From: Owenia fusiformis
Taxonomy: Eukaryota; Annelida; Polychaeta; Sabellida; Oweniidae
Direction of reading: 5' to 3'
NCBI GenBank assembly: GCA_903813345.2
Contig: CAIIXF020000007.1
Coordinates: forward strand, 17,342,714-17,406,713
DNA length: 64,000 nt
The number at the start of each line of letters is the position of its first letter. Position 1 is the first letter of the stretch. Positions 2,402 to 63,680 of the stretch are shown piece after piece. The notes below the pieces were generated by a model. The model saw nothing but the letters and a program-made list of their open reading frames with translations, was not told the origin of the DNA and made no database searches. The translations under genes were made by a program, and so were the position numbers.

Positions 2402-5400
2402 GTTCCTCTAATGACATTATCAGGCCACAATGAGGGTATATCTGCAGCACAGTGGTTGAGTGAACAGGAGGTGTGTACTGCATCATGGGACCACTGCATC
2501 AAGATTTGGGATGTGGAGCAGGGAATGGAAAAATCAAATCTGGTATGAATCATGTTATGAAATTTTCTACAAGCTACTGAAATGTGGCACATTCATAGTA
2601 GAAGAACAAAGTTACAATATACAAAGGTAACTTCTTTAGTGGGGGAGTTGATGATGATTTCATCAATAAAGAATGGTGATATTTGTGATGAAAGCCAAAT
2701 CAATATTTTCAAATTCTGTTATATTGGGTGAAGGAGAAAGTTAACCCATAATGAAATTAAATTCATTCTTTCATTTTTAAACAGCCATTGGCAATTGGGC
2801 ACCATCCTTTACTAACTGTATCAGTGTAAAGAACAAAAGTATTAACTTGCTAAATATATTTTGTTGTTGCAGAATGGCACCAAGGTGTTCTTAGACATTG
2901 ATTACTCTCCCCACAACAAATGTGTTCTAGCCGCCTCATCAGACAGACATATACGTTTGTATGACCCAAGAAGTACAGGTAAGTGAAGTTCAAGCTGCTA
3001 GATTCATCCAATTCAGCATTCAGTCCTTTTTATCGCACTCTGAAAAAGTGCTATATTGTCGTCGTCTTGTGCTGTTGGGCGGGCGTTTGGGTGTGCGGGC
3101 GTGCGGGCGGGCGGGACATAAACCAAATCTTGTCATCAAATTTCCAGGATAACTGCTTACCTGTTCAACTTGAAATTTTTACAGATGCAAGAGCAGTCTA
3201 GTACCAAGATCTGATTAGGTTAAGGGCATGCTGGGTAAACTATGTGGCAGCCATTTTGAATTTTTCAACAAATCTTGTCATCAAAATTCCAGGAAAACCA
3301 CTTATCCTTTCAACTTGAAATTTTTACAGATGCAAGAGCAGACTATTGCCAAGATCTGATTAGGTTTTGGGTATGCTGGCTGAATTACATGGTGGCCATT
3401 TTGATTTTTTGAATTTGGCGGCCATTTTGAATTTTTCAACTTGCTCTAAATTGACCAAATTTTTTTTTAAAAACATCTACAAGTTCTCAGAAGTTCAAAT
3501 CTGACCTTAGATTTCAGATTTGACCTTTCATTCACCTTCAGTGACCTTGAAAAGGTCAAAAAAGTTGATTTTCTAAATTGATATTTTGGATTTAAATTTA
3601 GGTCAGCTTAATTACAAAACACCTACTGAGGTCTGAAAAAGTGAAATTTTCAAGGTCGAAAGTCAAGGTCATTAAACTAGGTCACAAATGATGTTATCCA
3701 AGTTTCTCAAAGTTTGAGACTACAAATCAATTCTTGTCATCAAAATTCCAAGAAAACCGCTAACCTGTTCAACTTGAAATTTTTACACATGCAATAGCAG
3801 ACTAGTGCCAAGATCTGATTAGGTTAAGGGCATGTTGGGTAAACTACGTGGTGGCCATTTTGAATTTTTCAACAAATCTTGTCATCAAAATTCCAGGAAA
3901 ACCACTTATCCGTTCAACTTGAAATTTTTACAGATGCAAGAACAGACTATTGCCAAGATCTGATTAGGTTTTGGGTATGCTGGCTGAATTACATGGTGGC
4001 CATTTTGAATTTTTCAATTTGGTGGCCATTTTGAAGTTTTCAACTTGCTCCAAATTGACCAATTTTTTTTTAAAAACATCTTCATGTTCTCAGAAGTTCA
4101 AATCTGACCTTAGATTTCAGATTTGACCTTTCGTTGACCTTCAGTGGCCTTGAAAAGGTCAAAAATTTGATTTTCTAAATTGATATTTTGGATTTAAATT
4201 TAGGTCAGCTAATTACAAAAGACCTACTGAGGTCTGAAAAAGTGAAATTTTCAAGGTCGAAGGTCATCAAATTAGGTCACAAACAATGTTATCTAAATTT
4301 TCCCAAAGTTCAAGACTACAAATAAATTCTTCTCATCAAAATTGCAGGAAAACCGCTAACCTTGTCAACTTGAAATGTTTACAGATGCAAGAGCAGACTA
4401 GTGCCAAGGTCTGATTAGGTTTTGGCCATGCTGGGTAAATTGCATGGTGGCCGGTTTGCTCTTCAAAGTGCGATATTTATCACTGTGTGTCTTGTTATAA
4501 TTGTCATCCTCCTAAGCAGGTGTCCAGAATCCATACCTCCTTCTTCCCCCTGCTATAACCAATTTGGAAGCGCCCAATTTAACTGAATCACGTGATCTAA
4601 TTATACGCAATGACTTATACATGATTTCTGTCGCAGTGTTGCGACAGCCAATCAGATTGCGAGTTCTTAATCAGGGAAATGGTAACTGCTTATCGCTGGG
4701 GGTAAAAAGAAAGAATATATTCTGGATTTTGAAGCCCTGTGATCGGAGGATGGATAATTGTTGGTAATGGCATCTAGTGCAATTAAGTATTCTGAAAATA
4801 TCTCTCTCTAAACTAGAGAATTTTGATCACTCATGCCATCTTGAGATGCTATGATATTATTATCGCACTTTGAAAAAGTGCTATATTTGATCACTCATGC
4901 CATCTTGAGATGCTATGATATTATTATCGCACTTTGAAAAAGTGCTTTATTGTCGTCGTCTTGTGCTGTTGGGCGGGCGGGCGGGCGTGCGGGCGGGCAG
5001 CACATAAACGAAATCCGCGGGCGTGTGGGCGGGCGGCACATAAACCAAATCTTGTCATCAAATTTCCAGGATAACTGCTTACCTGTTCAACTTGAAATTT
5101 TTACAGATGCAAGAGCAGACTAGTACCAAGATCTGATTAGGTTAAGGGCATGCTGGGTAAACTACGTGGCGGCCATTTTGAATTTTTCAACAAATCTTGT
5201 CATCAAAATTCCAGGAAAACCACTTATCCGTTCAACTTGAAATTTTTATAGATGCAAAAGCAGACTATTGCCAAGATCTGATTAGGTTTTGGGTATGCTG
5301 GCTGAATTACACGGTGGCCATTTTGAATTTTTCAATTTGGCGGCCATTTTGAATTTTTCAACTTGCTCCAAATTGACCAAATTTTTTTTTTAAAACATCT

Positions 5401-8400
5401 ACAAGTTGTCAGAAGTTCAAATCTGACCTTAGATTTCAGATTTGACCTTTCATTCACCTTCAGTGACCTTGAAAAGGTAAAAAAAGTTGATTTTCTAAAT
5501 TGATATTTTGGATTTAAATTTAGGTCAGCTTAATTACAAAACACCTACTGAGGTCTGAAAAAGTGAAATTTTCAAGGTCGAAGGTCAAGGTCATTAAACT
5601 AGGTCACAAATTATGTTATCCAAGTTTCTCAAAGTTTGAGACTACAAATCAATTCTTGTCATCAAAATTCCAAGAAAACCGCTAACCTGTTCAACTTGAA
5701 ATTTTTACACATGCAATAGCAGACTAGTGCCAAGATCTGATTAGGTTTAGGGCATGCTGGGTAAACTACGTGGCAGCCATTTTGAATTTTTCAACAAATC
5801 TTGTCATCAAAATTCCAGGAAAACCACTTATCCGTTCAACTTGAAATGTTTACAGATGCAAGAGCAGACTAGTGCCAAGATCTGATTAGGTTATGGCCAT
5901 GCTGGGTAAATTGCATGGTGGCCAGTTTGCTCTTCAAAGTGCGATATTTATCACTGTGTGTCTTGTTTTTAAATTGGATTGAGTAATTTTGAGATTTTCC
6001 ATCATGTCTCATATGTCATCTAATTGAGGTCATAAAACCCTTAGGGATTGCATCATCTGTGTATATTTATTTCAGATGACAGTTACAATACAGTTTTATG
6101 TCCATTATGTGATTCATGGAAGTAAATCAATAAATCAATAGTACTAGTCATCATGCTATGTGACTTAAGAATCCAGCCTAATAGATCAGAGCATGCTCCT
6201 CATGCCAAACAGAAAGTGATGGGTATTAGAATACAAATTGAGCAGTACATGTAATCCTTCATGACGTTTTCTTACCTATTTTCTGTATTATAGATGGTGC
6301 ATTAGTGAAATGTACATTCACGTCCCACACAGGATGGGTGTCTAGCGTATCATGGTCTCCTAGCAACGAGCATCTCTTCATATCTGGCTCATACGACTCT
6401 CTCGTCAAAATGTGGGATACTAGAAGGTACTATATACAATTATTGATAAGTATCAAGGTTGACGACTCATTACACCTCAAAGAAAATAAAATATAGAATG
6501 ACTTATTCAAACAACATAATGGAACACTCATATTCACCTGCCATCTATTCCTTCCGAGTCATCAATGACATCAAGATGTGAAATATATTATATGTCATGG
6601 TCACCTACTCTACTCCCAGTATTTTTTCGTGTGCGATCTAGTTTCACTATATTCATGTTTGTGGTAGAGTTGAAAAAATAATCGTCACAAAATTCACCAA
6701 TTAAAATCCTGGAGATTGGTTAAATTTGTTATTACCTGGGACTCCAATGCATTTTGTTTTGTGTAAGACATTCCTCCAAGTGTTGTTGGGGGATGAATGG
6801 GATACTGTCAACAATGTCCCATACTGGCTTATGAGATCAAATAAACCAAAAGATGATGATGTAATATAGATTGAGGTGCAGCGTATCATTGACACAGATC
6901 TTGTAATTGTAAATCTTAATCAAATATGACATTGGGTAGGTGCAGTTACTGTACATACTTGTAAGGTAACTTAGTTTACAGGATTCAGAGAAAATGAAAT
7001 TTAAAGTGAAATTTATTAGCTGTGAAATTGTGATTTCTTAAAATTTGCAAAATTAAAACTCGCAAAATTAACTGGGAGTACAATATTGTTTTTCTTTTGA
7101 CTAGTCAGAATCAGTTCACAGTAAATGACTATCTGGAATAGATCGCAGTTATCGTAAGATCGTTTATAGTTTGTTCAACCATTAGAACTGATGCGATCTT
7201 ACACTATCTTCATAGATTGGCACATTTTTGGACAAATTACTTTTGTACTTGTGTTTATCCTTAACATTGCTTCTTGCTTTTAACCAGGAAATACCAGTTT
7301 GTACCATCTTTGCTTCAGCAAGTTGAAGCAAATTTAATGTGCATATTAATAATAATATGACTAATTATCCAATCGAACGAAGTTCGGAGGGATATAGGGA
7401 ACGCCTCCGTCCGTCCGTCCGTACGTCGGTCCGTCCGTACGTCCGTCCGTCCGTACGTCCGTCCGTCCGTACGTCCGTCCGTACGTCCGTCCGTCCGGGC
7501 AATAACTCAAATACCGTTGGCCCGATTTTGTTCATATTTTGTACACATATACCCTATGGGGGTAGAAGTTCTGCTCGAAAGCCGATTTTCAAAATGGCCA
7601 CTCATTTCAAAATGGCTGCCATTTTAGTGCCGATTTTACAGTAATTTAGGTGCAATATGTAAAACTGTAATAGCAATATGTTTTAAATGTAAAAAAATTA
7701 TAAAGGACATTAATAATGCTACAAATGTAGATATTAAAAAAGCACATGGCAGCCATCTTGAAAAATGGCGGCCTTTACTTGTCATTTTACGATTTTTGCT
7801 GTAACTCAAATAATAGTGGAGCGATTTTGTTCATATTTGGTATGTGAATACTATAAGCTTTGCACACTGTCTAAAGACACTTTTAGTAGAAGGCGGCCAT
7901 TTTGAAAAATGGCCGCCATTTTAACGTATTTTACTATAACTCGAAAAGTAGTGGAGCGATTTTGTTCATATTTGGTATGTGAATACTATAAGCATGGTAC
8001 ACTGTCCTATCACATTTTTGGTAGAAGGTGGCCATTTTGAAAAAAAATTTGAAAAATGGCCCCCATTTTAACGTATTTTACTAAACTCGAAAAGTAGTCG
8101 AGCGATTTTTTTTTTCATATTTGGTATGTGAATACTATAAGCATGGCACACTGTCATATGACACTTTTGGTAGAAGGCGGCCATTTTGAAAAAATTTTGA
8201 AAAATGGCCCCCATTTTAACGTATTTTACTATAACTCGAAAAGTAGTGTAGCGATTTTGTTCATTGGTATGTGAATACTATAAGCATGGCACACTGTCTA
8301 TTTCTAATGACACTTTTGGTAGAAGGTGGCCATTTTGAAAACTGGTCGCCATTTTAACGTATTTTACTATAACTTGAAAAGTAGTTGAGCGATTTTGTTC

Positions 8401-8932
8401 ATATTTGATATGTGAATACTTTAAGCATGGCACATTGTCTAATAAAACTTTGGGGAGTAGTCGGCCATTTTGAAAAATGGCCACCATTTTTATGTGTGTT
8501 ATTTTACAAGTACGTGTGGGATTTTTCAAAATTTTTAGAGGTGGCTACTGAAAAGCATATTATTTCTTCTGATGACAACTTGGCTAGTGAGCAACCATTT
8601 TGAAAATGGTGGCCTTTCTGGTGTGTTGTTTTATGATATTTGCTATTCGTTTGTAAAAATGCCAGCCATTTCTGTTCGATGGGATTCGGTACACTTTGGC
8701 GTTGCCATTGTTCTGGTGAATTCCTCTTACACACAGGATGCATGTTAGAATATAGTTTATTTTTTTCCTTTCCAGTCCCAAAGCACCATTGTATGACCTC
8801 AGTGGTCACGAAGATAAAGTGCTGGCAGTTGATTGGTCGATACCTGACCTGTTGCTAAGTGGCGGGGCTGATAATTCCCTGAAGATATTCAGACATTCAG
8901 ATAAATCACAAATAGCTGTCAACGATTCATGA
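2402..8932 (+). CDS. WDR12: ribosome biogenesis protein WDR12, C-terminal WD repeats (5' exons missing)
   Basis: Four exons: 2402-2542, 2873-2978, 6294-6426 and 8776-8932, all with AG/GT borders and compatible phases. They give 178 residues ending ...IAVNDS then TGA. Recognisable WD-repeat segments in order are [96 protein letters not shown] and [14 protein letters not shown]. The residue order follows vertebrate WDR12 (yeast Ytm1) to its C-terminus. In known systems WDR12 joins PES1 and BOP1 in the nucleolar PeBoW complex for 27S/32S rRNA processing and 60S assembly. The N-terminal NLE domain and first WD repeats (over half of the usual ~420 residues) were not found, so they lie left of the window. 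Introns carry families A and B elements and a hAT MITE. Confidence 0.95.
3031..4497 (+). mobile_element. family A non-autonomous Helitron-like element, copy 1
   Basis: The 5' end is TATCGCACTCTGAAAAAGTGC, folding into a hairpin, followed by TTGTCGTCGTC and a (GGGC)n-type tract. The interior has two long units with TTCAACTTGAAATTTTTACA, GGTGGCCATTTTGAATTTTT and AAGGTCA-rich blocks. At 4461-4475 the 5' box reappears as its complement (TTCAAAGTGCGATA). The small hairpin GATATTTATC and 9 nt follow, then CTTG|T. It has no coding capacity and lies in WDR12 intron 2979-6293. Confidence 0.65.
4505..4753 (+). mobile_element. hAT-like MITE, copy 1
   Basis: The ends are CATCCTCCTAAG and its near complement GATCGGAGGATG(G). 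The flanking 8-bp direct repeat ATAATTGT lies at 4497-4504 and 4754-4761. TIRs starting with CA and an 8-bp target duplication fit the hAT superfamily. Inside are CACGTGA (E-box), a TGTCGCAGTGTTGCGACA hairpin and CCAATCAGA. A second copy lies at 28341-28559. This copy sits immediately after family A copy 1. Confidence 0.75.
4822..5967 (+). mobile_element. family A Helitron-like element, copy 2, with duplicated 5' end
   Basis: The full element runs from the 5' hairpin at 4925 to CTTG|T near 5965, with the complement box at 5932-5945. Before it, about 40 nt of flank plus the first ~25 nt of the element are tandemly duplicated: 4822-4886 repeats as 4888-4950, so two copies of TATCGCACTTTGAAAAAGTG are 64 nt apart. 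The interior matches copy 1 but is shorter, with one long unit instead of two. Confidence 0.65.
7368..8716 (+). mobile_element. family B Helitron-like element, copy 1
   Basis: It starts after an A with TCCAATCGAACGAAGTTCGG, where CGAAC-GAA-GTTCG forms a hairpin with a GAA triloop. An imperfect (GTCC)n tract follows at 7405-7500. Then come about seven monomers containing ATAACTCRAAAAGTAGTGGAGC, GGTATGTGAATACTATAAGC and GGCGGCCATTTTGAAAAATGG. The end has TGTTCGATGGGATT, the complement of the 5' box, and finally CTGG followed by T. It ends 60 bp before the last WDR12 exon. Confidence 0.65.
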
Positions 8933-9100
8933 CCTCAGAGATCATTAAAAACAATTTAGAATTAACATACACAGTATTTGGATATTGAAAGACTTGAAAT
9001 GTTATTGTACAGTATACTCATGAAAGATGTTGTGCTAGAACTTATCATGGCATTTTCTGTATTACATTATAAAATGTATGTTTTAGTAAGTATAAATTGC

Positions 9101-9106: not shown

Positions 9107-9109
9107 TGA

Positions 9110-24699: not shown

Positions 24700-27158
24700 A
24701 CTGCACTAGCAACATTGATATCCTTGTGATAAACACTGCTACAACTTGATCTCTGTAAGTACTTGATTGTTGAGCATTTTTTGCTCAGGATTTTATCATT
24801 TGGGATTCTTTTTGAGTTGGTTATTTTGGAAATCACTTGGTTTTATGGTTTGATATTGTTTGTAGCACGATGTTTTCTATGTTTTCTTGATAAACTAGGA
24901 GAACTGGGTTTTAGGAGGAATAATACCCAAGGGCCTTGGTCTGAGGCTATTAGTTCTCCTATGACCCAGTATGAAGGGTTTATCTAACTTAAACCCCACA
25001 TTGACTGTTATGAAAGATAAATGGCCCATGATCTAATTTTAGGAAAATTTGATTTCTTTTGTATTAAATATGAGGTAAGTATATTGAGAAGTGAGTGAGT
25101 GTAATTAGTTCAGCTTTAGTGCACTGCATGTAACAGGCCAGGTACAGTTTAAAATTTGATTTATCATCTTTTGTGCTACACTGGCTTTGGATAGCTCGCA
25201 AAGTGTCAATTCTTTAAAAACAATTGAAAATGTATATTCTTTAAAACAGTTTGTTCTATTGTGTAGCTACCTAAGTGGGGTCTAACAAGGAATAACATCC
25301 TTATATAGAAGAATAACATTATTTTGTAGAGGAATACTGTTTTTTTATTATTTGTATGTTATGACATACTTATTTAAAGGAGTAATATTCTCTTGTTTTG
25401 AGGGATAATTGTTTCACATTCAAGAGCACTTAGATTTCAAGCAAACATTTAGACATTTGTCATACTGTATTACTAATCAAATCACCTGTCCATAGTGTTT
25501 CTAGTTGTGACAGGTCCCTTAGGCTGCATTACTAACATTCCAGCAATGGACAATTGGCATTTAGCAATAATAATCCAACCCAAGTTTGATGGGGATATGG
25601 TGAAGCCACATCTTGCTCGTCTGTCTGTCTGTCATCTGTCTAAATAATAGTAATTTTCACGTTAGCATAAACAGGACATCCCTTCATCTGCTGGTCCATC
25701 TATACTTTGTAGCAAATTTTGGAAAATATAAGGGAATTGTTTGGTATGCATATAAATGTATTATATTTCCTTGAATAGACAACCCTTTATTACACCAGGC
25801 ATTTTTATATTGATTTGAACAGATCCACTAGAATGGATAGGAATCAGGTACCTGATAAGCATAGATTGAAGTTAGATGCCCAAAAGCTGATTTATTATAA
25901 TAATGTTTTGTTGATATTTTACAGGTATAAAATTTATATGGCATGGTTTTATTTTACATGGCATACTATTTTGTACTTAAAGGTACAGTTATTTACTGGC
26001 AATAGGTGACGCCATGTTATATCATAAGATCAATGATTTGACGAGTGTTCAGCTTTAGGGCATACATTTTGTGATATCAAACTTTGAAAAATAAGTTTTT
26101 ACTTGAAATTGATACATAATTTTAATAGATTTAATAATTATAAACAATAATGGCGTTTTTAGTGTATTTTTGTTGCACTTTGGTACATAATATATTAGCA
26201 ACATAGACAAAAACTGACAAAAAATTTTTTTATCAGAGCAAAAATAAAAAAAAACGTTGGTGACCCATTAAGATTAACTCAAATTATTAAACTTTTCAGT
26301 CTGCAAAAGTTAAAAAATCCTTTCATTCGGTTTTTATTCATTGATTCTATTTGTAATAAATAAAAGTTAAATGTTTCATGAGTTGCTGCCCTTGCATTGA
26401 CATTGTCTGGTTTTGCTCATAAATGATTCATGCTATGTTAAAGGGTTAACAGAGAGAATAAAAAAGTAAATGTAGACTTTAAAATTGACTTTACTAATTT
26501 ACTTTTTCACCAGACCTAGCATATCACTGTTTTTTCAGCACTTAGCATAAAATTGTGTCAGTATCCTCAGAAAACCATTGTCAAACATGCATACTTATTT
26601 CTGTGCAGAGGTGCTCTTCTCAGATAATATGATACACTTTAATCTTTGCAATCTCTCCACTCTTACCTTAGAATATCATAATAATAACTTGATACATAAA
26701 CTTTTAATTATGAAAATATTTCATCGTGTTTTTTCTAACCCAGTCGGCAAAACACAATAGCTAAACTGGAAGCATTAAACAGGAAGTTATGTTAAAAACT
26801 CATTTATTGCTCGATAATTGCTGATTTATACATAACTGATAATCATAAACAATATTTCATTTTGAGAAGCCAGATTGCTGCTATATATAAATAGAATTAA
26901 CTTTCAATTAAAATGATCAAAGTAGAGTATCTATGTAAATCCCATATTGAGTAAATCACTTATGATTGCATTTTGAAAATTTATTATTTTTAAAGGTCGG
27001 GTTGATACATAAATCTTTGATAATATCACACACGTGTAGATATTGTGGTGAATAACTCTGAATCCAATCAACCCAGATACCTGGAAATAATTGATTTTGA
27101 ATTTATAAGATGTGATGACATGCGGATATTAAAAGTGCAAGCTAAGTAAAGGTTATTA
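24700..27158. other. intergenic, nothing recognised
   Basis: AT-rich; short open frames only, none with splice borders or recognisable protein content. Confidence 0.4.
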
Positions 27159-27330
27159 TCTCATTGAATGAAGTTCATTGGGATATAGAGAATGTGTCCG
27201 TCTATACGTCCGTACATCCATCTGTCTGGGTAATAACTCAAATACAGCTGGCCCAATATTATTTATATTTTATATGCACATCTGCCCTATAAGTACAAGT
27301 TCTGCTAGAAAACCAGTTTTGAAAATAGCA
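27159..27330 (+). mobile_element. family B Helitron-like 5' fragment
   Basis: It starts A|TCTCATTGAATGAAGTTCATT, with a GAA triloop hairpin, then GTCCGTCTATACGTCCGTAC and AATAACTCAAATACAGCTGG. The 3' part is missing. Confidence 0.6.
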
Positions 27331-27592
27331 TGAAAATTGACATGATTGGTTCTTGTCCCATGCTAGTGCCTTGTGTCTACACATATCAATTGATAAACCA
27401 ACGTTCTGCTGGGATTTCTTCTAATATTTCATGATTTTAGAAATATTTTCACAAAATAATGATTGAGCAAAGCAATAGAATACATAACTCATGATTTAAT
27501 CGAGAAGAAGTGAGTAGCTCCCATAATTATGTTGTATTCTTTCATATTCATGAACATAATTTGTTTAAATCACGCCCATTAGTATATAATGT

Positions 27593-27662
27593 CCAATCAA
27601 ATTGCAGAATGTGGTCACGTGAACAATCATGAGCACATGCTCTCTCAGTGGCGCGCATGCGT
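27593..27662 (+). promoter_or_regulatory. promoter-like cluster upstream of the GRB gene
   Basis: CCAATC (27593-27598), CACGTG (27616-27621) and GCGCATGCGT (27653-27662, matching the NRF1 site) lie within 70 bp, in the only CpG-containing patch near the GRB gene. The first GRB exon seen has a splice acceptor before its ATG, so an upstream noncoding exon is expected. A transposon origin is possible because nearby hAT MITEs also carry CACGTGA plus CCAATC. Confidence 0.35.
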
Positions 27663-28340
27663 AAAGTAAAATTTGAAATTGTGGAAATGGCATTTATTTC
27701 AGTTCAACATCATCATTTCAAAACTATGGTAATACTATACTGAAGTTATTCGATCTAAACTTGTAGAGAATACTCATAAGACAACAGCTAACATTGTTAG
27801 ATCCATTTGAATGTCAAATGAGGCCTGTTTATAAAATTGTTTATCGAATGTGCCAATACCAATAGTCATCTTTGGGAAATCTCCCCCCCCTGCTGACACT
27901 CATAAGTGTTTCATGATATTTGCTATGCCTTGGCGTTGCTGTTACCTAGTTTCAATCTTTGCTTGCCTAGATGTTCTTGAAGATCTGGTTGATGAAGGTT
28001 ATTTTTATCAATTTATTAAAATCACAAATACATTTTTTATGTAATAATGATAAAGACACCACAGGGGGTATATGGTGAATTGTATAAACATACCCAGGGT
28101 GCTGCATAAACAATCCTGAGGGTGTTAAGGGTCAGGTAAGGGTGAAGCAGATGAAGTTTGTTTATTTTGTCCTAGGGTGCTGCGCAATGACAAATAACAA
28201 AGAAGGGCCTGGAGCAAGATAGATAAAAACATGTATGAATTATGTTGGCAGAATGTCCTGGAATTCCATGTAATGTATTTATACAAACATTCTATGTCTA
28301 TAAGAGATTCTTTATAAATTGCTTTCATGCCAAGTTACCA

Positions 28341-30774: not shown

Positions 30775-33700
30775 ATGAGTGAAGTAGGACCCAATATGGA
30801 CCATAGTCGTGGTTTATTTGAGAGGCTAAGACAGAAGCTGTCATATAACAGCACTGGTAAAGGTCCACCAAGGTATACAGACTCACCCACAGCACCCAGG
30901 ATAGAACATCACCATGGTAAGTACCCCTTCACAAATGTTTCTTTTTGTCTTTTCTTACTTTAAACCATTACTATGAAGATAATCCCCAGTTTTATTCATG
31001 TTTGAAGTAATAGTACAACAACATCATTATCCCACCGAACGAAGTTCGAGGGGGATATAGAAAAGCCGTCCGTCCATCCGTCCGTCCGTTCGTCCGTCTG
31101 TTCATCCGTCCGTTTGTCCGTCCGTTCGTCCGTCCGTTCGTGTGTCTTGGCAATAACTCAAATACCGGTTGACGGATTTCATTCAAATTTTATAGGACCT
31201 CTGCTCGAGAAGGAATTTTCAATATGGCCGCTTAATTCAAAATGGCGGCCATTTTTCGGAAAAAATATAATCTTTAATAACTCAAATACTAGTGGATGGA
31301 TTTGGTTCAAATTTTATATGCTGTAGCCTGGGTACAAAGGAGCCTTGCTCAAGAAGACATTTTCAAGATGGCCACCAAATTTCAAAATGGCGGCCATTTT
31401 TCTTAAAAAACATTATCTTTAATAACTCAAATACCATTGAATGGATTTGGTTCAAATTTTAGATGCTGATGCTTAGGGACATAGAAGCTCTGCTCGAGAA
31501 AGGATTTTCAAGATGGCAGCTAAATTTCAAAATGGCAGCCATTTTTCGTAAAAAAACGTTATCTTTGATAACTCAAATACCATTGAATGGATTTGGTTCA
31601 AATTTTACATGATGATGCCTAGGGACACAGGAGCTCTGCTTGAGAAGGGATTTTCAAGGTGGTGGCTAAATTTCCAAATGGCTGCCATTTTTCATAAAAG
31701 AACGTAACCTTTGATAACTCAAATACCAGTTGACGGATTTGGTTCAAATTCTATATGCTGATGCCTAGAGACAAAGAAGTTCTGCTCAAAAATAAATTTT
31801 CAAGATGGCCTCTGAATTTCATAAAAAAACGTAATTAATGATAACTCAAATACCAGTGGATGGATTTGGTTCCAATTTTATATGCTGATGTTTAGGGAAA
31901 AAGGAGATCTGCTTCAGAAGAAATTTCAAAGGCATTAGCTGAATTTCAAAATGGCTGCCATTTTTCATTAAAAAAGTAATCTTTGATAACCCAAATACCA
32001 TTGGACGGACATTCTCTGCTAAAGAAGAAATCTAAAGATGACAGCTGAATTTCAAAATGGCAACCATGTTTCATAAAAACATTATCTTTGATAATTCAAA
32101 TACCAGCGGATGAATTTGGCTCAAATTTTTTATCAAAACATGTTTTGTTCGGTGGGATTTGCTACTCCGTGGAGTTGCTGTTTTTCTAGTTACAATAGTG
32201 AAATATTGGACCAAAGGCCGAAGGCCCAAGCTCCAATATTTCACTATTTTGCCCACGGAAATGATTAGTATTATTAATATCACTGGTTATGCCCAGGGCT
32301 GAAATAACAAGAACTGAGTATCACTGAACGAATTATATTCGCATTGAACGATATCTCATTTCCCGGGGAACATTGCCAGGCATTAATCCATTATTAGGCC
32401 CGCCACTATGGCCCGCCACTATGACGTCACATATAGAAAATAGTCAATAGAGTAAAATAAATTCTAAACTAGTACTATTACCACTAGAACAGGTCCAGCA
32501 AGGTGGTAATAACACTAGATAGTATTGCAGTGGTAGACGTGGAAGAGGGGTCTCCCTTCCCCAATACGGACCCATCAAAAATTGGCTCCCAAGAAAAAAT
32601 TTGGGGACCGAAATTTGTCCCTCTCCCTTCACATAAACTAGGCACCAAAAGAAATATATATAACAGCTGAAAACACTGGGAATTATTATTATATAACTAT
32701 ATTATATTATTTTTATTTTGAGCCTTATATTCTAAAACAAAATTAGGCCCATTTTTTAAAAGAGCCAAATTTTTTTCCTATTCAATTTTTGGGACCTCCC
32801 CCCTTTGATTTCAAGGACTGCCCTTGTAAAGTACTATATTAGTATGTTATTATTTGTATGTGAGCCATTTGGTCCTGGGAGCCTAGTTGTTGCCATTATT
32901 TCAAGTCGCACTTGGGTGGAATGATAACACCTGGGCCCTGGACACAGTATTTAATTCTGTGATTTCAATAACTTAGGGATCAGTAACAAAATCATGACTT
33001 AAGTGTGAATTCTAATTTATGTTTTACATTGTTTCAACTCATATAATAAATTACATGATTCTCATTTATGGGGACTGCAAAAAGTGAGACGTTGACTCTA
33101 ATAGGCCTGTAATTTACAAGGTTTATCATCATACATGTATATTTAAGAGTCTCTGTCTAAACCCTTGAACTGTATAGTTATATATAAAGTCACATTAAAA
33201 GTACAATATATTAACTTGTAAGTGATTTTAGAATGATTAAAGCAGCATAAAACATAAATAAAATAGACATGAACAACCATCAAAATGTTACAAGTGTACC
33301 AGGTGTACTAAGAAGTGGGTCAAAAATCTTTGCTAGTTCAAGAGGCCTAAAGATGCTATTTTCCCACATCTCTGCTCAATTAAGTGCGTTTCTCTGCAGT
33401 ATACCATCTCGGGACATTTTGTACTTTAAGGGAGGGAGGGGAACAGCAGTTCCTTAAGTGTCAAAATATACAGTTTTGATGCTGTTATTGATCTAAATAA
33501 TGATACTGAAATGCAGTCATGACATGAATAAGATATTCATTATGATATGAATACACAAGACACTACTTAATGGAAGTATAAATTCGGAGAATGCTATTTC
33601 AATTGGATAGCTCGATTTTTATCAACCATATTCTCTGTACATGAATCTTTCTCAGTTTTATTGGCAAGTGTAAATCTTTATCTAAGCAGACCTCCAGAAA

Positions 33701-36700
33701 GCAAACCGAGGCTTGGAGATATATGTCTTCACAATCATAAAGGTGGTGCATATTATTGCAACAAACGTGTTCTGTTAAGAGAGGTTGTCAACATTATAAA
33801 CAATCTTAATGATGTAAATTGTGCAATAATTTCTCATACAGCTCATAAGCTGAGAATTTTTGTCATTGAGCGAAATGATAATCATCTCAAAGTACCTAAA
33901 TGTGAGTTATGACTCTTGGATAATGTTTCAGCGGAAATTACATACTTTCTACAGGATAAATGAAAAAAATGTAACATGATCATTATTGTTTCCTCAAAGG
34001 TTTTTCACAGTATTTCTGTTGAATAGTAGTCACATGATAGTTTTTGTTTTACAAAAATATGAGATCATGTGAATTTTATTTTCAATTGAAAAGGTCCTTG
34101 GCATTGTACATATGAATTTTCCCTGACGTTTCAACATTCACTAGCAACATCCAATAGCAATGTTATATGTTTTATTTAAGTTGTCATCATTTTATGTATC
34201 TATTGCTGTCATATTATACTAATGAAGACATACATGTAAGTGAATGAATTTATCTTGACTGTTACAGTAGATGACTTAGACCTGGAGGCCCTGATAACAG
34301 AGATGCATACAAGCTTTCCTGATGAAGATGAACGACTTGTCAACTTTGACCAGGAGAGCATCAGTGGGGTCAGTGCTAAGGGAATCAATGACTTAGTGAC
34401 CGAACTCAATGTAGAGAATGAGAACATTGAGTCACATGACTTGCGTCAGGATGGCGCTAAACCTGTGGGAATAGAAGGTAAGGAGGAAATGTATTTCTTT
34501 GTACATCAGCCTTTTATTTTGCTCATAGTTTGAAATAGACAGTTTAACAGGAAACAGGGTACCTTTATCCTGCTCAAATTGCCAATCTGTTCCAGTTGCC
34601 CCTATCTTGCTCTTCAAGCCCATCAAACAAAGTTTGGAGGGATATAGGAAATGCCTCCGTCTGTCCGTCCGTTCATCCGTTTGATAACTCAAATACTGCT
34701 TCCCCGATTTTGTTCATATTTTGTACACATATATATATATATACAGTGTATATATAGAGATTATCCTATATGAGGTTCAGGATATTGGGATTATCCCGAG
34801 GCCAATGTAATATATCTGCCCGAGGGCCGTAGGTCCCGAGGTTAGATATAGGATACTATATTGGCCAAGGGATAATCCCAGTATCCTGAACCGACTATAG
34901 GATGATCTGTTTATCCCATACTTACCACATTGTTCAATTGGCCAAAGTTCGGAAACGTTGCAACCATCCGTGGAATTATCTTAAAATATTCATGTTCAGT
35001 TTTGTATTCTTGTCCGTAGGCGGGTTTTCCTGTTCAAATCTTTGATAATTAACGGGGCATATAGCTCCTTCCCTTCGTTAATGCATCCAACAGATCGCGA
35101 TTGTCTGCGTTTTTCTCCATTGTCGTTTACAGTATGCAAACGTTACAAAAAAGAACCAATACGGGAACAGCGATTATGTCGTAGCGGGCAGATATACTAT
35201 ATCTGCCCGCTCGGAGCGGGACGTAAAGCTATATCTGCCCGCTGATGAAAATATAAGTTTTTACAAACCGGCTTTATGTACCCGTTACACGTCCAAGTAT
35301 GGGATAAATATATATATATAGAAGTTCTGCTTGAAGGCCGATTTTCAAAATGCTGCTCATTTAAAAAATGTTGCCATTTTAGTGCTGATTTTACAGGTAT
35401 TTAGATACAATATACAAAACTGTAATAGTAATATGCTTTAAATATAAAAAAGTTATATAGGACATTAATTAAGCTCGAAATGTAGATATTTAAGAAACAC
35501 ATGGCAGCCATTTTGAAAAATGGCGGCCTTTACAAGCTATTTTACAATTTTTGCTGTAACTCGAAAAGTATTGGGGCGATTTAGTTCATATTTGAATACT
35601 ATAATCATGGCACACTGGCTTTGGGTCTCTGTGCCTCCTTAGAAGCATATTATACATTTTCTGATGACAATTTGGCAAGTGTGAAAATTTTGAATATAGT
35701 GGCAAGTTTTATGTTTGTTATTTTAGGATTTTTTTGATAACTGAAAAAGTAGTAGAGGCTGTTAGATTGGATTTTCTACGCTTTGGCATTGGTGTTATCT
35801 AGTTAAAGTGGATCATACCCTGCTCAATTTGTTCTCTGAATATGGTGAAACTTACACAGTTATAATTTTTGTATTCTGCTTTCATATATGCTACTATTAA
35901 TTGTTTGACAGTCTGTTGTTCAGGGCTTCATTACTAGCCTTGGTTATTTCTGCCCTAGCCACTAAAATTGCAGCATAGCATGGATTACTTATAAATCAAT
36001 ATAGGCACCAGGTAGCTATCTAATTATGACAAAAACATGTATGTTTAGCCAACAATAGGGTTCAGCAGAGGACATTTGTAAGTCTCTGTTGACAGTACCC
36101 AAAATCAGCTTTGATTAATGACAACAATTGTCATCCATACAAATAAAATTGTTGCACGATCAGAAATAATATTTCTCAGCATAAAACTTATCAGGTGCTT
36201 AGAATTAACTGATTAATTGACCTTTTGCGATCAGAGCGCCCCCTGTTTTTTCAAAATCGGGGGACGCTTAACCGCTGTCTAAATCATGTCAATAAGATCT
36301 TAGACTTGGCATGTGCTTAAAATGAATGTTGATCAAGTCAAATCGAACACCATCGTGAAAAATAAATCAATAAAGTATGAAATACAGAAGATAATCTCTC
36401 AAAATCAAACAGCTATAGCAGTGTGGCCTATTTGTGACGTCACTTCAAGATAGAATCCATCTGATGATCATCAATTGTGAAATTGCTATTTAAGTGATAA
36501 CATACATTTTGAAATATGAGTATATTCTGTTTAAAATTGAGGCTATATCTTATATTCATCTTTTAAGGTTGTTTAAGGTTGTGTCCTTGTATATTTTGTT
36601 AATGTTATGAAATTTTATTGGACACCTTCGTTACGTGATCCAAGGTAATCCCACTGTCAATGTTAAACAAATGATTTTGCTCATCTCATCTCTCATCTTA

Positions 36701-42700: not shown

Positions 42701-45700
42701 CAGATAAGGTAGATATTGGGTCAAATTTGAGAAAATATTATGAGAAAATCACCTTACATCAGTGCCTTTATATTCCAGTCCGTGAGCTATGCAGAGTTGG
42801 GGACATAAGCAGGGAGAGCATGTCCCTCCCTCTGGACACATGCATTCCTGCAATGAGTGGTACAAACCTACTACAAAACCCTCTCATCAGTGCAATATCA
42901 AATGGGACAAAATCCTCTCCATCTAGCCCCATGTTACGTCGTACTCCGAGACAGGATTCAGATGAGACGCACATTGCAGTAGATTTTACGAGTGGCCACA
43001 TGTCATGCATCCCTACAGTGAGTATTTTTTATGAAGTAATGTACAAATAGTGACTGCCATTGAGGGAAATAGTGCAAAATATTTTCCTCAAGGGAATATC
43101 CTGTCCACTGACATGTTCCCGAGGCTGCAGGCCGAGGGAACAAGTCAGTGGACAGGATATTCCCGAGAGGAAAATTTTTACACTATTTCCCGAAAATGTG
43201 GCAGTCACTATTTGTTTTATTTTATACCTGATAAGTACTCTGTAAACAAAAACAAAATGAGAAGTCTTTTCATTTCAATATCAAATGTTCACAGGTTCTT
43301 ATTGGCATTTAAAGGCATTTTACCTTTCAACTCCTATAATCTCAGATTTGGGGGAAGATAAAATGTACTATTGACAGCTGGTCACATGACCTAACTGGTG
43401 ATTAGTACAATTCATCTTCCCTGAAAGCAGGGATTTAGGACTTTCCAGGGAATTAGTTCATCTTTTCCATGTCATGTGACCATGAATAAGCCAATGAGCA
43501 TCTAGAATACATTTGAGGTATATAATAATGTAAACTAACTGATGAGGAATCTGGTATATCTTTTTGTTTACATATTGCAATATAATTATCAACAGTGGCA
43601 GCATGTCATCTAAATTAAACTGCAATGTGACCTTGACCCTTTGATAAGTATAATAAAAAACCCATAAATGTAAATAATGACATTTCTTGAATAAGTGGAC
43701 TGGTTATGTTGAATCTTTCAGGAACTTTCCATAGAACTTTCCTTGATTGTGCATAATTTCATTGATACTACATGTCTATTATTAGAGATATTGCCAAAGG
43801 TCTCCTTTTTTCTGGTTACCTTGCATGATAAATACCCTTTAATACTGACATTTTAGAAATTAATTGAAATATATTTTGCCAATGATCATGCCACATCCTG
43901 TTCAAGGTTTTTATTATTTATATAGTCATTTTCAGTTCAATTTCCGCCCCCAAATACGAATAGAATAATCCTAGTAAATTGATTGCTGCAATTTATACAA
44001 TTAGACTCCTTAATTCCAATAACTGTAAAAATGTTTGAAGCATCTGTCCTTTCATGTTTTAGATTTACTCACAACTCAACACATGCATATGCATGTGCAT
44101 ATATATTGAAACATTGTACATTATGTATTTACTTTTTATGGTCGAACATATTTATTATCCCAATGAACGAAGTTCAGTAGGGATATAGTGAAGCCCTTCA
44201 TCCACCCATCAGTCCGTCCGTCCATCCGTCCGTCAATCCGAAAAATAACTCGAATACTAGTGGATGAATTTGCTTTAAAATTGGTGGAAAGATATTGGGA
44301 AATTGTTTTATGCAAATTTTCTTTCTCAATATTTGGTGAAAATCTTAGGTTTTTCTTTTTAAACGAAAGAAATGAATATTATTGTTTGAAACTTTGGTAG
44401 TATATCAACTTCTATATATATCACAGTTTTTCATCTTGACCCTGCAGGCAAAATAGTGAAATATTGGACCTTGGGCCTTTGGCCAATATCTATATATTTA
44501 TTATATTGCCCTTTGAAATGATGTTATTGTACTATGGTCTTTATGATTTGTGCCTTTGAAACTCCTCAGTGGTCACCCAAATGCTTAAATTGGAATTTCT
44601 GATATACCTTTAATGTATGATTTTTAATATCTGCCAGTTTAATCAATGGTAAATATTACATTGTGACATACATTTATTTAGATTCATGAATATAGCGTTC
44701 GTTGGGATTTGCTACTCCGTGGGGTTGCTGGCTTCTAGTTCAAATTATATTTCTACCATTCTTGGACCTTGGTCCCATCTCCTCCTTTTGCTTTATTTTG
44801 GAGAAGTGAGGTTTTCACCATGTGAGCCCACAAAATGGTGCCATTTTTATGTCACCACCATAAGCGGTGACATATTGTTAATAGTCTCCAACTTTTTTGT
44901 GGATGGTGTTCGGCATCTGTAAAAAATGGCAGGTAGTGATTTTGCATGTTAATGCCTGGTTAGAATTTTGCATTCCAAGTTAATAGAACGTCTGGGTCAG
45001 ATGTGGTTTTTGAGTCTAGACAATACATCTCGACAATGAATTGAATTCAGAATCCAAAGGAGTGTCTCATTTTAACCCCTCTTAGGTGTACCATAGATTA
45101 AATCGGAAATTGATTTCCACTCCCAGTAAATCTCAATAGACTCTCATGAAGCCCTTTGTATACCTTCAAGTTAGACATGCCATCAGCATCAGACATTATG
45201 CTGATTGCTAATGAGATAAAACATCACCTTTAAGTGCAATATATCACAATTACATTTTTATAAAAAAGGACATGCTATTCCTTTTGAAGATTTTAAAGAA
45301 ACATCTCCTTTTATATTAACAACTTCTTTGATATTTTTTTAGTATGGTAAGAGACATATAACATTTATTTATCGATCAGAACATCATTTCTTGTACTTGT
45401 ATATGACAAGCATTCAATTTCTGTAACAAATTGTTACTATTTTGTATATATTTGCAATAACTTGCGTGGTGGTGTTATATTGACATGTTTAGGCCTTGTG
45501 GATAACCTGCTGTTGTTATATCACCACCATAAGTGGTTGGTGGTTGGTGTTCGGAGTATGTAACAAATGGCAGTTGGTGACATTTTGCATGTTAATGCCT
45601 TGTTTTACAATGTTCAAATCTTGTATTTCAGGAGACAGTTAGTTTCTTTAGGGATGACAAGTCACCTACAGAGCTGTGCATCAACCAGCATCGTAAAGCC

Positions 45701-58190: not shown

Positions 58191-58393
58191 GGGGCATATG
58201 TGACCACTTGTTTAAAAAGTTGTATTTCTGGTTCGTTTATCACCTTAGAATTGAAACAAAGACCTCGATTTTATGATTAATATCAAATATATGACCTCAT
58301 AATTTTTTCTGCCATTTACAAAGACCTCAATCACTACGCGATTTCGGTCTTTTAACAATGAACAGAATAAAACTTTTGGTCACATATTGCGCC
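58191..58393. mobile_element. ~203-bp MITE
   Basis: GGGGCATATGTGACCA at the left and TGGTCACATATTGCGCC at the right are imperfect inverted repeats. AAAGACCTC and CGGTCTTT words lie inside. No coding capacity. Confidence 0.5.
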
Positions 58394-60515
58394 ATAAATC
58401 ATAGAATCTCGGTCTTTATTTCCTAAATAATTGCATGTTCTGCCACAGAATACAAAAATAATTTGTGTTATTGTTACAAATTATTTTTACTGCAGCTATG
58501 TCTTAAGATGAAATCATATTTACCTGTATATTTTCAGGATCTTATATTTTGTAGATTCATTTTCTAAGTTGATATTATGTGCCTAGAGTTGCCTTGTGTT
58601 TCTACAGTAGTAGTTGCCTCGTGCTCTCTAGAGAAAGTTGCCTAGTGTTCTTTGAGCATAAGGCTATATGACCTTGTGCAATGTATATCTCACATATCTT
58701 AAATCTCATTTTATATAGATGTTTTCTTTTGTAAATACAGTACATGTATATAGTACAACAAATGGAGCAGTTGAACAGTAAAGAATCTGTCTGTCATAAA
58801 CTTTAGAAATTTGAGGATTTTGAAGACTGATTTTTATAGTTACGAAGCTCTATTGTAAACATCACATAACACCTTGGACAGTTTTTCAGTGAACAGGTTT
58901 TATGAACCTTTGTCTTTTACAAATTATAACATCATGTTTAATTACAAGTGACTAACAACTTATATTCCATAAACTTGGTGCTCCCAAGGATTGTTGGTGC
59001 AATTAGGTGCAAAATCCAAATCTAATGACCATGGTTAGAATTTTGAGATCGATTGAGAAAAAAAGATTGAAACTAAACATTGAAATGTACATAACAGAAT
59101 TTTTATATTTGAGCTAATGCATTGCATATGTATTTAAGTAAAATCCTTTTTGTCAACTGGATTAGAAAATAGAAAATGAAAACTTCATTTTCAATATTCA
59201 CGCATAATTAAGGTACATTTATACATGCAATACAATTTGTCCAGTGTACTGAGTGTCCACTGAGTGAGTTAATTCCTATGAGTTAACTATCATACGGGTA
59301 TTTTTAAAGCATCATAGAATGCAAATTATGTATATATGAAATATATAACACTTGTAAATAGGATTTAGACTAAAGTGCTACAGGGTGTTGCATATATATA
59401 AGGATACATATTTAGTGCTCCAATTGTCACACATATATTTAGTACTACAGGGTGTTGCACAAATAAGGATAAATATCTAGTGCTACAAGGTGTAGTATAC
59501 TGGAACTTACCTATTGAAACTATTTTAAATACATAATACATTTTGGACACCCTGTTTATTTACATATACATGTATATAAATTGGTTTAAGTATGCTTGTC
59601 AACTGTTAATTAAGAGCTGGTAATCATTAAGATTATTTTTTGGAGCTCAAGGTACATCTTCAAGATCATTGTTTGAAAACATTGCTGATCCTGGCCATGT
59701 TATTTTGTAGTTCAAATTAAAGTATGAACCTTACTTTTTTCAGGAATGTATCATTGCATTGTCTTCTTTTAGCAAATCTCTCCAGGAGAAACTGTACAGT
59801 TATTTCAAAGAAAATCTACACATTCATTGTAGAGTTTCAGTTTCCAAGTTTCCCAGCAACATTGGATTACTTGTAGTTACCCGTGTATATTGAACATTTT
59901 TTACCGAAAAAATTGTTTAGCGTTTGTAGGTGTTCACCACAGAGAGTGCAATTTATACAGAATTCAATAGAGCATGTGTGGAGGAGGGGTGTCCACAAGA
60001 GATAGGTGTTCAATAAGATTGATTTTACTGTAATCTAATTGCTTGGGTGCAACAAGAATGATTTCCAACCTCAACATGGCAAGGTACAGCATTTCATCAA
60101 ACACGATCCTTTAGGTGAACCCATATTCTCGAAAGAACTGTTTAAAAATACAGTCTTTATAAAAGAACATAAAGCTGAAGTAACAGCACATATAATATAT
60201 ACAGAAAAACAGAAGCTTATGTAGAGGTTTTCTTGATATGGTTCTTTATGTCATTGCATTCTTTAGGTTTCCCTATATGTATAGTTTGTACAGATCTAGT
60301 TCTCATTGGGATTTTGTGAAACATCCAACAAGAAGTAATGTTGTGATGAAGATGATATTGTGATGCAGATGATATTGTGATGAAGTTGATAAGTTTAATG
60401 CAGATGATTTAATGAGGTGCAAGGTATCAACTATATATATTTTTCTCATGTGATATATTAAGCAATATCACTGCTGAAATAGATGACAGAACAGACACTT
60501 ATTTGCAAACCTGAA
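58394..60515. other. intergenic, mostly unrecognised
   Basis: Contains two CTACAGGGTGTTGCA words (59380, 59447) and ACACCCTGT (59548), possibly a decayed mariner-type MITE, and a minus-strand piece of the AACACC repeat at 59920-60020. No gene seen. Confidence 0.4.
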
Positions 60516-60519
60516 TATC

Positions 60520-60860
60520 ATGTCACATCCTAGGTCTGTAGCATGTCACACCACGGGTCTGTGGCATGTGGTATTCTAGGTCTATGGCATGTCATATCAT
60601 AAATTTGTGTCATGTCACAATGTCACATCCTAGATTTGTGGCATGTCACATGTCTAGATCTGTGTTGTGTCACTATAGGTTTGGGCATGTCACCATGGGT
60701 CTTTGGCATGTGGTATCCTTTATCTGTGGTGTGCCACATCCTGTCTGTGGCATGTCACATTGTAGATCTATGGCATGTCACACTCAATGTTTGTGGCATG
60801 TGGGATCTTAGATCTATATGGCCTTGTCACATCCTAAGTGCATAGCTCGTGGCATTCACA
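60520..60860. repeat. ~30-bp degenerate tandem repeat
   Basis: GGCATGTCACATCCTAGGTC-type units repeat about ten times. They give overlapping short plus-strand frames that are not genes. Confidence 0.75.
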
Positions 60861-61079
60861 ATCTGTGGTGCACTTTGATGACATATGCTTTAAGCCAGCA
60901 TGTGACCAAAGTTTGTAGAGTACTAAGCTGAAGTACTTTAATGTATAATTTAGATTGCTCTCCATGATAATGCATGTAATTTTGTAAATTTCATTGAATA
61001 TCACATTAAAATATTCATGATCTATAACATAAGATGTTTCATGTTCTTTTTATATCATCATAACCAGCATATTCTATTC

Positions 61080-61727
61080 TACAGGGTGTCCCGAAAGTAT
61101 GGGGCCCCCCCCTAGGCAGACATATACCAGTGTCGTCATAGTATGTGTTATATATCATTTGAAAGCTTATCCAAAGTTACATTGATTCGCCAAGTATCAT
61201 GGTTCAACTCTCAAATGTGAAAAAATTACAGGCATTTCAAAATTTAGTGTTTGGTCAAAATTAAGTTCAATTTTACACCAAATCACTTGTCAATGTGTCC
61301 TCCTGGGTCATCTTAACAGCAGCAATTCTTTTCGGGTCGGAGGGATATTGAGTTGGAAAAAGAGAATGGTGAAGGTAGAAACTCTAAGGAAACTCTTCTA
61401 AAGTCCCTTAACAGGTTTTAAGAGGGTTATAAAATCCCACAACCCTATTTGAAGGGCTTTTAAGGTCATATCTGAAAATAATTGCTGCTGTTAACATGGC
61501 CAAGGGGGGACACATTGACTAGTAATGTGGCGTAAAATTGAATTTTATTTTGACAAAACACTAACTTTTAAAATGACTGTAACTTTTTCCCATTTTGGAG
61601 TTAAACCATGATACTTGACAAATCAATGTAACTTTGGTTAAGCTTTAAAATGATATATGACACATACTATGAGGACACTGGAATATGTCTGCCTAGGGGG
61701 GGCCCCATACTTTCGGGACACCCTGTA
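61080..61727. mobile_element. foldback MITE with TACAGGGTGTCCCGAAAG ends, copy 2
   Basis: Same family as 41033-41671, but its right half matches the left half of copy 1, so the two copies are in inverted orientation 20 kb apart. TA at both ends; the halves are complementary over about 270 bp. Confidence 0.8.
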
Positions 61728-61881
61728 TATCTGGAATGACGTACATTTAGAATGTTGATTTAGATGGCATTCGCTGGTCACACAGAGTATGACATTAGGA
61801 AAAGAAATAATGTGTTGGTTGTAATAATACAATGTTCAACTTCAGCCAATCATGTCTATGATCAAATCAGTTTAATTTTAT

Positions 61882-63680
61882 TATGTCACCACCAAAAGTG
61901 GTGAGATATTGTTATGGTCTCCGTTTTTTATGTCACCACCAAAAGTGGTGACATATTGTTATGGTCTCCATTTTTTTGCGACGGCGGTTGGCGTCCGGCG
62001 TCCGGCGTCCGGCGTCTGGCGTCCGGCGTCTGTAACAATTTCTTACAACTTCCTATAACTTAACAAATACTGTTTAGACTGACTGTAACAATTTCTTACA
62101 ACTTCCTATAACTTAACAAATACTGTTTAGACTGACTTCAATTTTTTCTAAATCATCTACATGTTCTCAGAAGTTCAAATCTGACTTTAGATTTGACATT
62201 TGACCTTCAATGACCTTCTCAAGGTCAAAAAGGTCTTTTTTCAACTTGCTTCACATTGACTAAATTTTTTTTCAAAATCATCTACATGTTCTCAGAAATT
62301 CAAATCTGACTTTAGATTTGACTTTAGATTTGACATTTGACCTTCAAATCTGACTTTAGATTTGACATTTGACCTTCAATGACCTTCTCAAGGTCAAAAA
62401 AGGTCAAAAAGGTCTGTTTTCAACTTGCTTCAAATTGACTACATTTTTTTTTCAAAATCATCTACGTGTTCTCAGAAATTCAAATCTGACTTAAGATTTG
62501 ACATTTGACCTTCAATGACCTTCTCAAGGTCAAAAAAGGTCAAAAAGGTCTGTTTTCAACTTGCTTCAAATTGACTAAAATTTTTTTTCAAAATCATCTA
62601 CGTGTTCTCAGAAATTCAAATCTGACTTTAGATTTGACTTAGGATTTGACATTTGACCTTCAATGACCTTCTCAAAGTCAAAAAAGGTCAAAAAGGTCTT
62701 TTTTCAACTTGCTTCAAATTGACTACATTTTTTTTTCAAAATCATCTACATGTTCTCAGAAATTCAAATCTGACTTTAGATTTGACATTTGACCTTCAAT
62801 GACCTTCTCAATGTCAAAAAAGGTCAAAAAGGTATTTTTTCATCTTGCTTCAAATTGACTAGATTTTTTTTTCAAAATCATCTACATGTTCTCAGAAATT
62901 CAAATATGACTTTAGATTTGACATTTGACCTTCAATGACCTTCTCAAGGTCAAAAAGGTCAAAAAGGTATTTTTTCAACTTGCTTCAAATTGACTAATTT
63001 TTTTTCAAAATCATCTACATGTTCTCAGGAATTCAAATCTGATTTTAGATTTGACATTTGACCTTTTATGACCTTCTCAACGTCAAAAAAGGTCAAAAAG
63101 GTCTGTTTTCAACTTGCTTCAAATTGACCCAATTTTTTTTTCAAAATCATCTACATCTTTTCAGAAGTTCAAATTTGACTTTACAAGTTCTTAGAAGTTC
63201 AAATCTGACTTTAGATTTGACCTTTGACCTTCAATGACCTTCTCAAGGTCAAAAAGGTCTTTTTTCAATTTGCTTCAAATTGACTAATTTTTTTTCAAAA
63301 TCATCTACATGTTCTCAGAAGTTCAAATCCGACTTTAGATTTGACATTTGACCTTCAATGACCTTTTCAAGGTCAAAAAGGTCTTTTTCAACTTGCTTCA
63401 AATTTACTTAATTTTTTTTTCAAAATCATCTACATGTTCTCAGAAGTTCAAATCTGACTTTACATTTGACATTTGACCTTCAATGACCTTCTCAATGTCA
63501 AAAAAAGTCAAAGAGGTATTTTTTCAACTTGCTTCAAATTGACGAATTTTTTTTTAAAAATCATCTACATGTTCTAAGAAGTTCAAATCAAACCTTCTTA
63601 AGGTCAAAAGGTATTTTCCAACTTTCTTTAAATTGACCAAATTGTTTTAGGTGGTGACATTTTGTCATGTTAATGCCTTG
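61882..63680 (+). mobile_element. family C Helitron-like element with 11-unit minisatellite
   Basis: A duplicated 5' end (TATGTCACCACCAAAAGTGG at 61882 and again at 61929) is followed by (GGCGTCC)n at 61985-62030 and a 57-bp duplication at 62029-62140. Then come about eleven units of 125-150 bp to 63650, with TCATCTACATGTTCTCAGAA, TTCAAATCTGACTTTAGATT and TGACCTTCTCAAGGTCA. The end is GGTGGTGACATTTTGTCA (complement box plus hairpin TGACATTTTGTCA), 10 nt, and TTG|T. The interior monomer is the one found in family A. Confidence 0.75.

Follow-up and report, generated by a model that had tools for sequence, protein, structure and literature searches.

Three repeat families of Owenia fusiformis as probable non-autonomous rolling-circle transposons of the Helentron/Helitron2 branch

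A stretch of 64,000 nt from the annelid Owenia fusiformis (assembly GCA_903813345.2, contig CAIIXF020000007.1, positions 17,342,714 to 17,406,713; hereafter the window) contains copies of three repeat families, here called A, B and C, and raises the question of which class of mobile element they belong to. The window lies on the sequence labelled C7 of a genome of 498 Mb with twelve large sequences. A Helitron2/Helentron/HINE origin had been proposed for family B from the letters of the window and extended to A and C. The present analysis makes it very probable that all three belong to the non-autonomous rolling-circle transposons of the Helentron/Helitron2 branch, as new families of a known kind (HINEs). 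For B, the proposal is carried by a palindromic subterminal inverted repeat (subTIR) at the 5′ end, a 3′ subTIR with a hairpin, a CTRR-like end, a T-rich target, empty sites without a long duplication, the lack of coding capacity and the presence of Helentron-type Rep genes elsewhere in the genome; for A and C, it still rests on the same anatomy and on T-flanked ends. On this assignment, many short repeats of the genome fall into one known class with exact ends for annotation, and the labels MITE (miniature inverted-repeat transposable element) or plain satellite would be wrong for the three families.

All three families follow a common plan. They open with TTAT and a 5′ hairpin, have a tract of short G+C-rich tandem repeats, repeat the complement of the start near the 3′ end and, as had been noticed, end in CTAG, CTTG or CTGG before T. 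Long copies also carry longer tandem repeats of 145 bp (A), 146-149 bp (B) or 136 bp (C). The hairpin expected at the start of each family is indeed more stable than in shuffled sequences (z -4.75 for A, -4.01 for B and -5.95 for C; in none of the three did any of 200 shuffles reach this stability), and the recurrence of the complement of the start near the 3′ end is complete in the consensus sequences, the 5′ and 3′ subTIRs pairing at 12/12 (A), 11/11 (B) and 10/10 (C) positions. The subTIRs are 10-12 nt long, and the 5′ copy sits within the 5′ hairpin. They are asymmetric: the 5′ one lies 1-3 nt inside the 5′ end, whereas the 3′ one is 19-32 nt away from the 3′ terminus. Among single B copies, the pairing has one G-T wobble in the copy at 44155 and one mismatch in that at 7365, and is partly lost in that at 27156. 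The 3′ hairpin of family B also beats shuffles (z -3.08 in subfamily B-I; -2.09 in subfamily B-II). The (GTCC)n or (GGCGTCC)n tract ascribed to every family is present as TCCG in B and as GGCGTCC in C, but A has a GGGC-type tract instead. The longest open reading frame starting with ATG in ten window copies is 69 aa, and three Helentron protein pieces searched against the window gave no match. The copies are as follows, in window coordinates.

3030..4494, plus strand: family A copy 1, TTATCGCAC...CTTG before TT; 5′ subTIR TATCGCACTCTG (one mismatch to the consensus) and 3′ subTIR CAAAGTGCGATA; GGGC tract at 3077-3115 and two 145-bp tandem pairs inside
4924..5965, plus strand: family A copy 2, with a further, partial 5′ end at 4860
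7365..8716, plus strand: family B-II copy, TTATCCAATCGAAC...CTGG before TG; TCCG tract at 7406-7497 and ~149-bp tandem repeats at 7901-8477
27156..27949, plus strand: diverged family B copy, TTATCTCATTG...CTAG before TT
31027..32189, plus strand: family B-I copy, TTATCCCACC...CTAG before TT, with a weak paralogous empty site; 146-bp tandem repeats at 31194-31821
34622..35802, plus strand: 5′-truncated family B copy, 3′ end CTAG before TT
44155..44738, plus strand: family B copy, TTATCCCAATGAAC...CTAG before TT
44847..44959, plus strand: short family C copy ending in CTGG before TT, or alternatively a longer one that runs to a decayed C-like 3′ end near 45499
45516..45602, plus strand: short family C copy, TTATATCACC...CTTG before TT
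61881..63680, plus strand: family C copy with doubled 5′ end (starts at 61881 and 61928), ending in CTTG before TA; (GGCGTCC)n at 61990-62030 and a 136-bp tandem array at 62343-63589
63768..64000, plus strand: family C 5′-end-like sequence

Most of the starts in the original prediction were recovered, namely both of A, those of B at 7368, 27159, 31030 and 44158, and those of C at 44850, 45519 and 61929. The B start at 34623 was withdrawn, the copy being 5′-truncated and beginning inside the hairpin, where A before TC is a coincidence (its 3′ end is at 35802), and so was that at 38406, which is an internal repeat fragment and no element start. The C start at 63769 resembles a 5′ end, but no 3′ end was seen up to the window end. 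The 5′ ends at 4860 (A) and 61881 (C) are additional. A blind scan of the window for the architecture returned 17 matches versus 1-7 in 20 dinucleotide shuffles; several of them belong to one element and others look like AT-rich chance. The scan missed A copy 1 and family B, the latter probably because 6-bp hairpin words were required.

The exact ends and the target were worked out for family B from 60 loci, which gave 50 two-ended matches and, after removal of 3 duplicates, 47 distinct copies. Reading towards ATCCC from the left, these have T (47/47), any base, a mostly purine position (A in 39, G in 6, T in 2), T (47/47) and T (46/47); to the right of the 3′ end stand T (47/47) and again T (44/47), with no fixed base further out. 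The 3′ terminus is CTAG in 46/47 copies and CTTG in 1/47. One query began with TTATCC, and the left TT is therefore an unbiased count only in the 19 copies from the other search (18/19), whereas the left T and purine further out and the right flank were part of no query. The joined flanks of four B copies align to uninterrupted paralogous relatives, two of them cleanly (locus L020 with L027 and with window 59879-60015; L003 with L089) and two more weakly. With the TT of the two flanks counted a single time, these alignments continue through the junction, and they show no duplication longer than TT. The net insertion of B is TTATCCC...CTAG or, equivalently, TATCCC...CTAGT or ATCCC...CTAGTT. The start between A and TC that had been claimed for every B copy thus gives way, since the empty sites place TTA inside the insertion; it had been read there because TTA is conserved. 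TNR precedes TT in 4/5 relatives without a junction gap (the fifth, at window 59938, has C for T), and is therefore a target preference and not element sequence. With a caret for the junction, the target reads TNR^TT; because of the TT ambiguity, the register within TT is hidden, and A^T and T^T fit B equally well.

The two subfamilies of B differ in a paired manner. B-I combines CCCACCGAAC with GTTCGGTGGG and has the 3′ stem ACTC/GAGT, whereas B-II combines CCCATCGAAC (CCAATCGAAC in the window copy) with GTTCGATGGG and has the stem ACGC/GCGT. Members of B-II are L069 and the window copy at 7365, together with 5′ ends in L064 and L082 and a 3′ end in L008. Where the 5′ subTIR of L069 and of the 7365 copy has changed from C to T, the 3′ subTIR has changed from G to A; in addition, one 3′ stem pair goes from T-A in B-I to G-C in B-II with the fold unchanged. 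These paired changes, which represent few independent events, are suggestive of subTIR pairing, and offer natural material on whether such pairing sets the rolling-circle end, a step that has been proposed but is unproven.

All three families are spread through the genome. The B 3′ end (a 28-mer) has 503 exact matches, and the A and C 5′ ends have 586 and 3,521, respectively, within three mismatches; none of these searches returned a match with the reversed control. C-type 5′ hairpins number 2,377 (control 0). The base after exact family C 3′ ends is T in 1,261/1,352 cases (93%) and another base in 91, compared with a T content of 34% in the window. Copies of A and C are dispersed and have TT-flanked ends. 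Among the matches listed for the A 5′ end, 54 are exact and preceded by the TNRTT pattern, and 44/46 one-mismatch rows read TTTTT before ATCGCAC; in family C the TNR^TT-like target is looser (5/8 starts examined).

The families had been called unrelated by sequence, which stands for B and C, as far as they show no significant match (scores 22 and 32 versus control maxima 34 and 33), but not for A and C, which share an internal monomer of ~140 bp between different ends (alignment score 156 versus a control maximum of 38 in 60 block shuffles). The best A-B score, 33, is barely above its control maximum of 32. The monomer common to A and C resembles the oyster case, in which satellite-like repeats are carried by different rolling-circle elements. 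Family C also reiterates its 5′ hairpin in tandem at steps of 46-57 nt, in 8 clusters that take up 19/100 places listed on sequence C1 and have up to four units; the window C copy does likewise at 61881-61976 with a 47-bp unit. In family A, window 4822-4951 is a 64-bp tandem duplication, each unit made up of host flank and ~28 nt from the start of an A 5′ end. Tandemly repeated elements are described, in the introduction of the paper on oyster HINEs, as often having 3′-truncated inner copies (PMC7492417; this paper, PMC4067079 and PMC3627910 are drawn on in excerpt throughout).

Genes of the expected kind occur in the genome. It has 58 Helitron_like_N matches (some are fragments of a single gene) alongside 62 for PIF1, and the two often lie in the same open frame, which reaches up to 3,377 aa. 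The Rep signature EFQMRGSPH[VI]H was found in 30/30 Reps sampled from the 58 matches. Since S between G and P in RG(S/L)(P/L)HxH marks Helentrons (PMC4067079), and all of these read RGSPH, the sampled Reps have the Helentron form. A second Helentron mark upstream, F/Y-x-R, is FYR in 28/30 Reps and WWR in those of L031 and L060. In one examined frame, an OTU domain (PF02338, E 4.7e-08) stands upstream of DUF6570 and Rep. The lineage of this frame has a stop codon ~4.3 kb after the Rep start, with the frame ending ~500 aa past PIF1. Of 24 open frames that carry Rep and reach 2,900 aa or more, 18 lie on small contigs (e.g. C13, C515 and C505) and 6 on the twelve large sequences. In L093, a satellite-like tandem-repeat tract takes up the rest of the fetched stretch after the stop of the Helentron frame; such arrays may accompany coding Helentrons too.

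By their description, A, B and C match known HINEs closely in anatomy, target and microsatellite type. Cg_HINE of the Pacific oyster (PMC7492417), likened here by description and not by sequence comparison, has an 11-12 bp subTIR with a complementary inverted repeat nearby, a 3′ subTIR and a 3′ palindrome, a mostly 4-nt microsatellite (GTCC/GTCY/GTCK in several), a satellite-like tandem array, and insertion at TT without duplication; the extended TNR^TT preference has no counterpart in the excerpts of that paper. HINE-Mo, DINE-1 and Helentrons (Thomas et al., 2014, PMC4067079) share the palindromic subTIRs, 2-4 nt from the 5′ end, the 3′ palindrome (here clear in B), a T-rich target without target modification and the RGSPH Rep. 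Their 3′ subTIR lies ~38-60 bp from the end, versus 19-32 nt here, and partners with common ends were found for them, whereas none was found for A, B or C. Helitron2 (Bao and Jurka, 2013, PMC3627910) is alike in its asymmetrical terminal inverted repeats (ATIRs), its 5′ hairpin and its compensatory changes between related elements, and its 3′ ATIR, ~20-30 bp from the end, is matched by the distance found here. Its Chlamydomonas examples have a T-rich target as well, although Helitron-1N1_CRe inserts between TTTT and T/C and family B at TNR^TT. No reports of Helentrons, HINEs or Helitrons in Owenia fusiformis were seen in listings of open-licence PMC papers.

Transposition of the three families would then follow a rolling-circle course. 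A Helentron Rep would nick one strand at a TT-type site, and rolling-circle synthesis would peel off the element strand. The point at which copying stops may be marked by pairing between the two subTIRs and, at least in B, by the 3′ hairpin, and the single strand would be joined into a new TNR^TT site without target duplication. As mobility would be defined by the ends and not by the interior, the families could carry different or common tandem repeats between like termini. The proteins would probably be supplied by the Helentron-like genes elsewhere in the genome, a link that is made through the class of machinery and not through common ends.

Several results weigh against this assignment. 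An autonomous element with the ends of A, B or C had been named as a check, and, although Helentron-type Rep genes are there, none with these ends was found in proximity searches around Reps. Within 400 kb of the 26 chromosomal Rep/PIF1 places compared there is none of the 54 exact A 5′ ends that are listed with a preceding TNR, and the two Reps on sequence C1 have no exact B 3′ end within 200 kb. An exact family C 3′ end at C1:4677457, 10.3 kb downstream of the Rep frame C1:4667175 on the same strand, is an unproven lead to an autonomous partner, and no C-type 5′ hairpin occurs within 70 kb of that Rep. For A and C, empty sites were seen neither in the fetched loci and window nor clearly in a joined-flank genome search with copy A2 of family A and copies C1, C2 and C3 of family C (15/15 candidates scored); A1, which adjoins another repeat and is not informative, and the B copies at 7365 and 44155 were left out of this search. 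Its only non-native matches were to the left flank of C2, running 2-10 bases past the junction, which is not decisive. Of the two weaker B empty sites, that of L002 (versus window 10968-10654) has 20 extra bases in the relative from 4 nt right of the junction, and that of L001, the window copy at 31027 (versus window 44535-44447), has a left flank of only 16-17 bases at 76%; a further relative of L020, window 54381-54227, has a gap at the junction. Most of the listed one-mismatch A copies are preceded by TTT and not TNR. Finally, the small 3′ hairpin claimed for every family holds for B but, in the full 3′ segment, is no better than shuffles in A (z -0.69) and C (-1.13 and -0.41); in minimal segments z is 0.02 for A and -2.37 for C.

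These weak 3′ hairpins and the want of empty sites for A and C would suit the notion that A and C are ordinary interspersed satellites resembling B by chance or convergence. That notion is very unlikely given the full consensus subTIR pairing, the 5′ hairpins at z -4.75 (A) and -5.95 (C), the T that follows 1,261 of 1,352 exact C ends, and the dispersed copies with TT-flanked ends. About as improbable are MITE-like cut-and-paste elements with a 2-bp TT duplication. Nearly every B copy is flanked by TT on both sides, and a TT duplication is indistinguishable from none, but the inverted repeats are asymmetric, no duplication is longer than TT, and the genome holds Helentron-type genes, with no DDE gene search made. 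Target duplications of several bases or a DDE transposase would have spoken for such elements; the B empty sites show no duplication of this size, and no DDE transposase was met, without a search for one. Canonical Helitrons (Helitron1), which run from TC to CTRR between A and T, account for the CTAG followed by T in 46/47 B copies and for the A left of the insertion in 39/47. They are extremely improbable here, as the B empty sites put TTA before TC in the net insertion and so refute the boundary between A and TC, as Helitron1 is described without the 5′ hairpin and paired subTIRs that A, B and C have (PMC3627910), and as the Helentron signature is present in 30/30 sampled Reps.

A narrower proposal, which is a sub-type of the Helentron/Helitron2 assignment and not its opposite, is a Helitron2 or proto-Helentron type lacking the endonuclease, with 5′ TT, 3′ CTAG and insertion between A and T in addition to subTIRs. 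One reading of the net B insertion is TT...CTAG within A^T, and such ends are described in PMC4067079 for proto-Helentron-Pi of Phytophthora, which also has a Helentron-like Rep; moreover, the frame end ~500 aa past PIF1 in one lineage leaves little room for an endonuclease. However, a T^T reading suits the ambiguous TT equally well, and proto-Helentron-Pi is described as Helitron-like in structure, whereas A, B and C carry subTIRs and a 5′ hairpin. We hold this sub-type to be possible but doubtful. Less likely still is that the elements are living Helitron/Helentron intermediates, which would join Helentron-type subTIRs, hairpins and Reps to 5′ TT...CTAG ends at A^T, with a strict T-N-R^T-T target in B, a looser one in C and mostly TTT^TT in A, and in which the 5′ reiteration of C would look as if rolling-circle initiation or strand joining restarted at the T-run just inside the 5′ end. 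Within the Helentron/Helitron2 assignment itself, the less expected details are how strict the TNR^TT target is in B and that C reiterates its 5′ end.

Some stretches near Reps were also compared between sister copies. The C-like 3′ end in L091 was rejected as an autonomous 3′ end, as L091 is not common to the sister copies (40/2,940 candidates scored). The 3.0 kb downstream of a Rep on C11 appears to lie outside the element, being unmatched at the sister copies that lie on C6 and C10 (40/2,940 candidates scored). Two stretches of a Rep frame on C6, one of 1.3 kb upstream and one of 1.7 kb spanning the stop codon, lie within the frame and a 3′ tandem-repeat tract, and no element end was reached there.

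The window contains other repeats as well. A 39-bp satellite-like array of about 35 copies lies in a stretch of strong GC skew at 29152-30516. Windows 41058-41644 and 61105-61700 are inverted copies, 95-97% complementary, of a repeat with inverted arms of its own. At 49224-50351, a 551-nt inverted repeat with 100% complementarity and a 26-nt spacer is either a very recent foldback or an assembly artefact.

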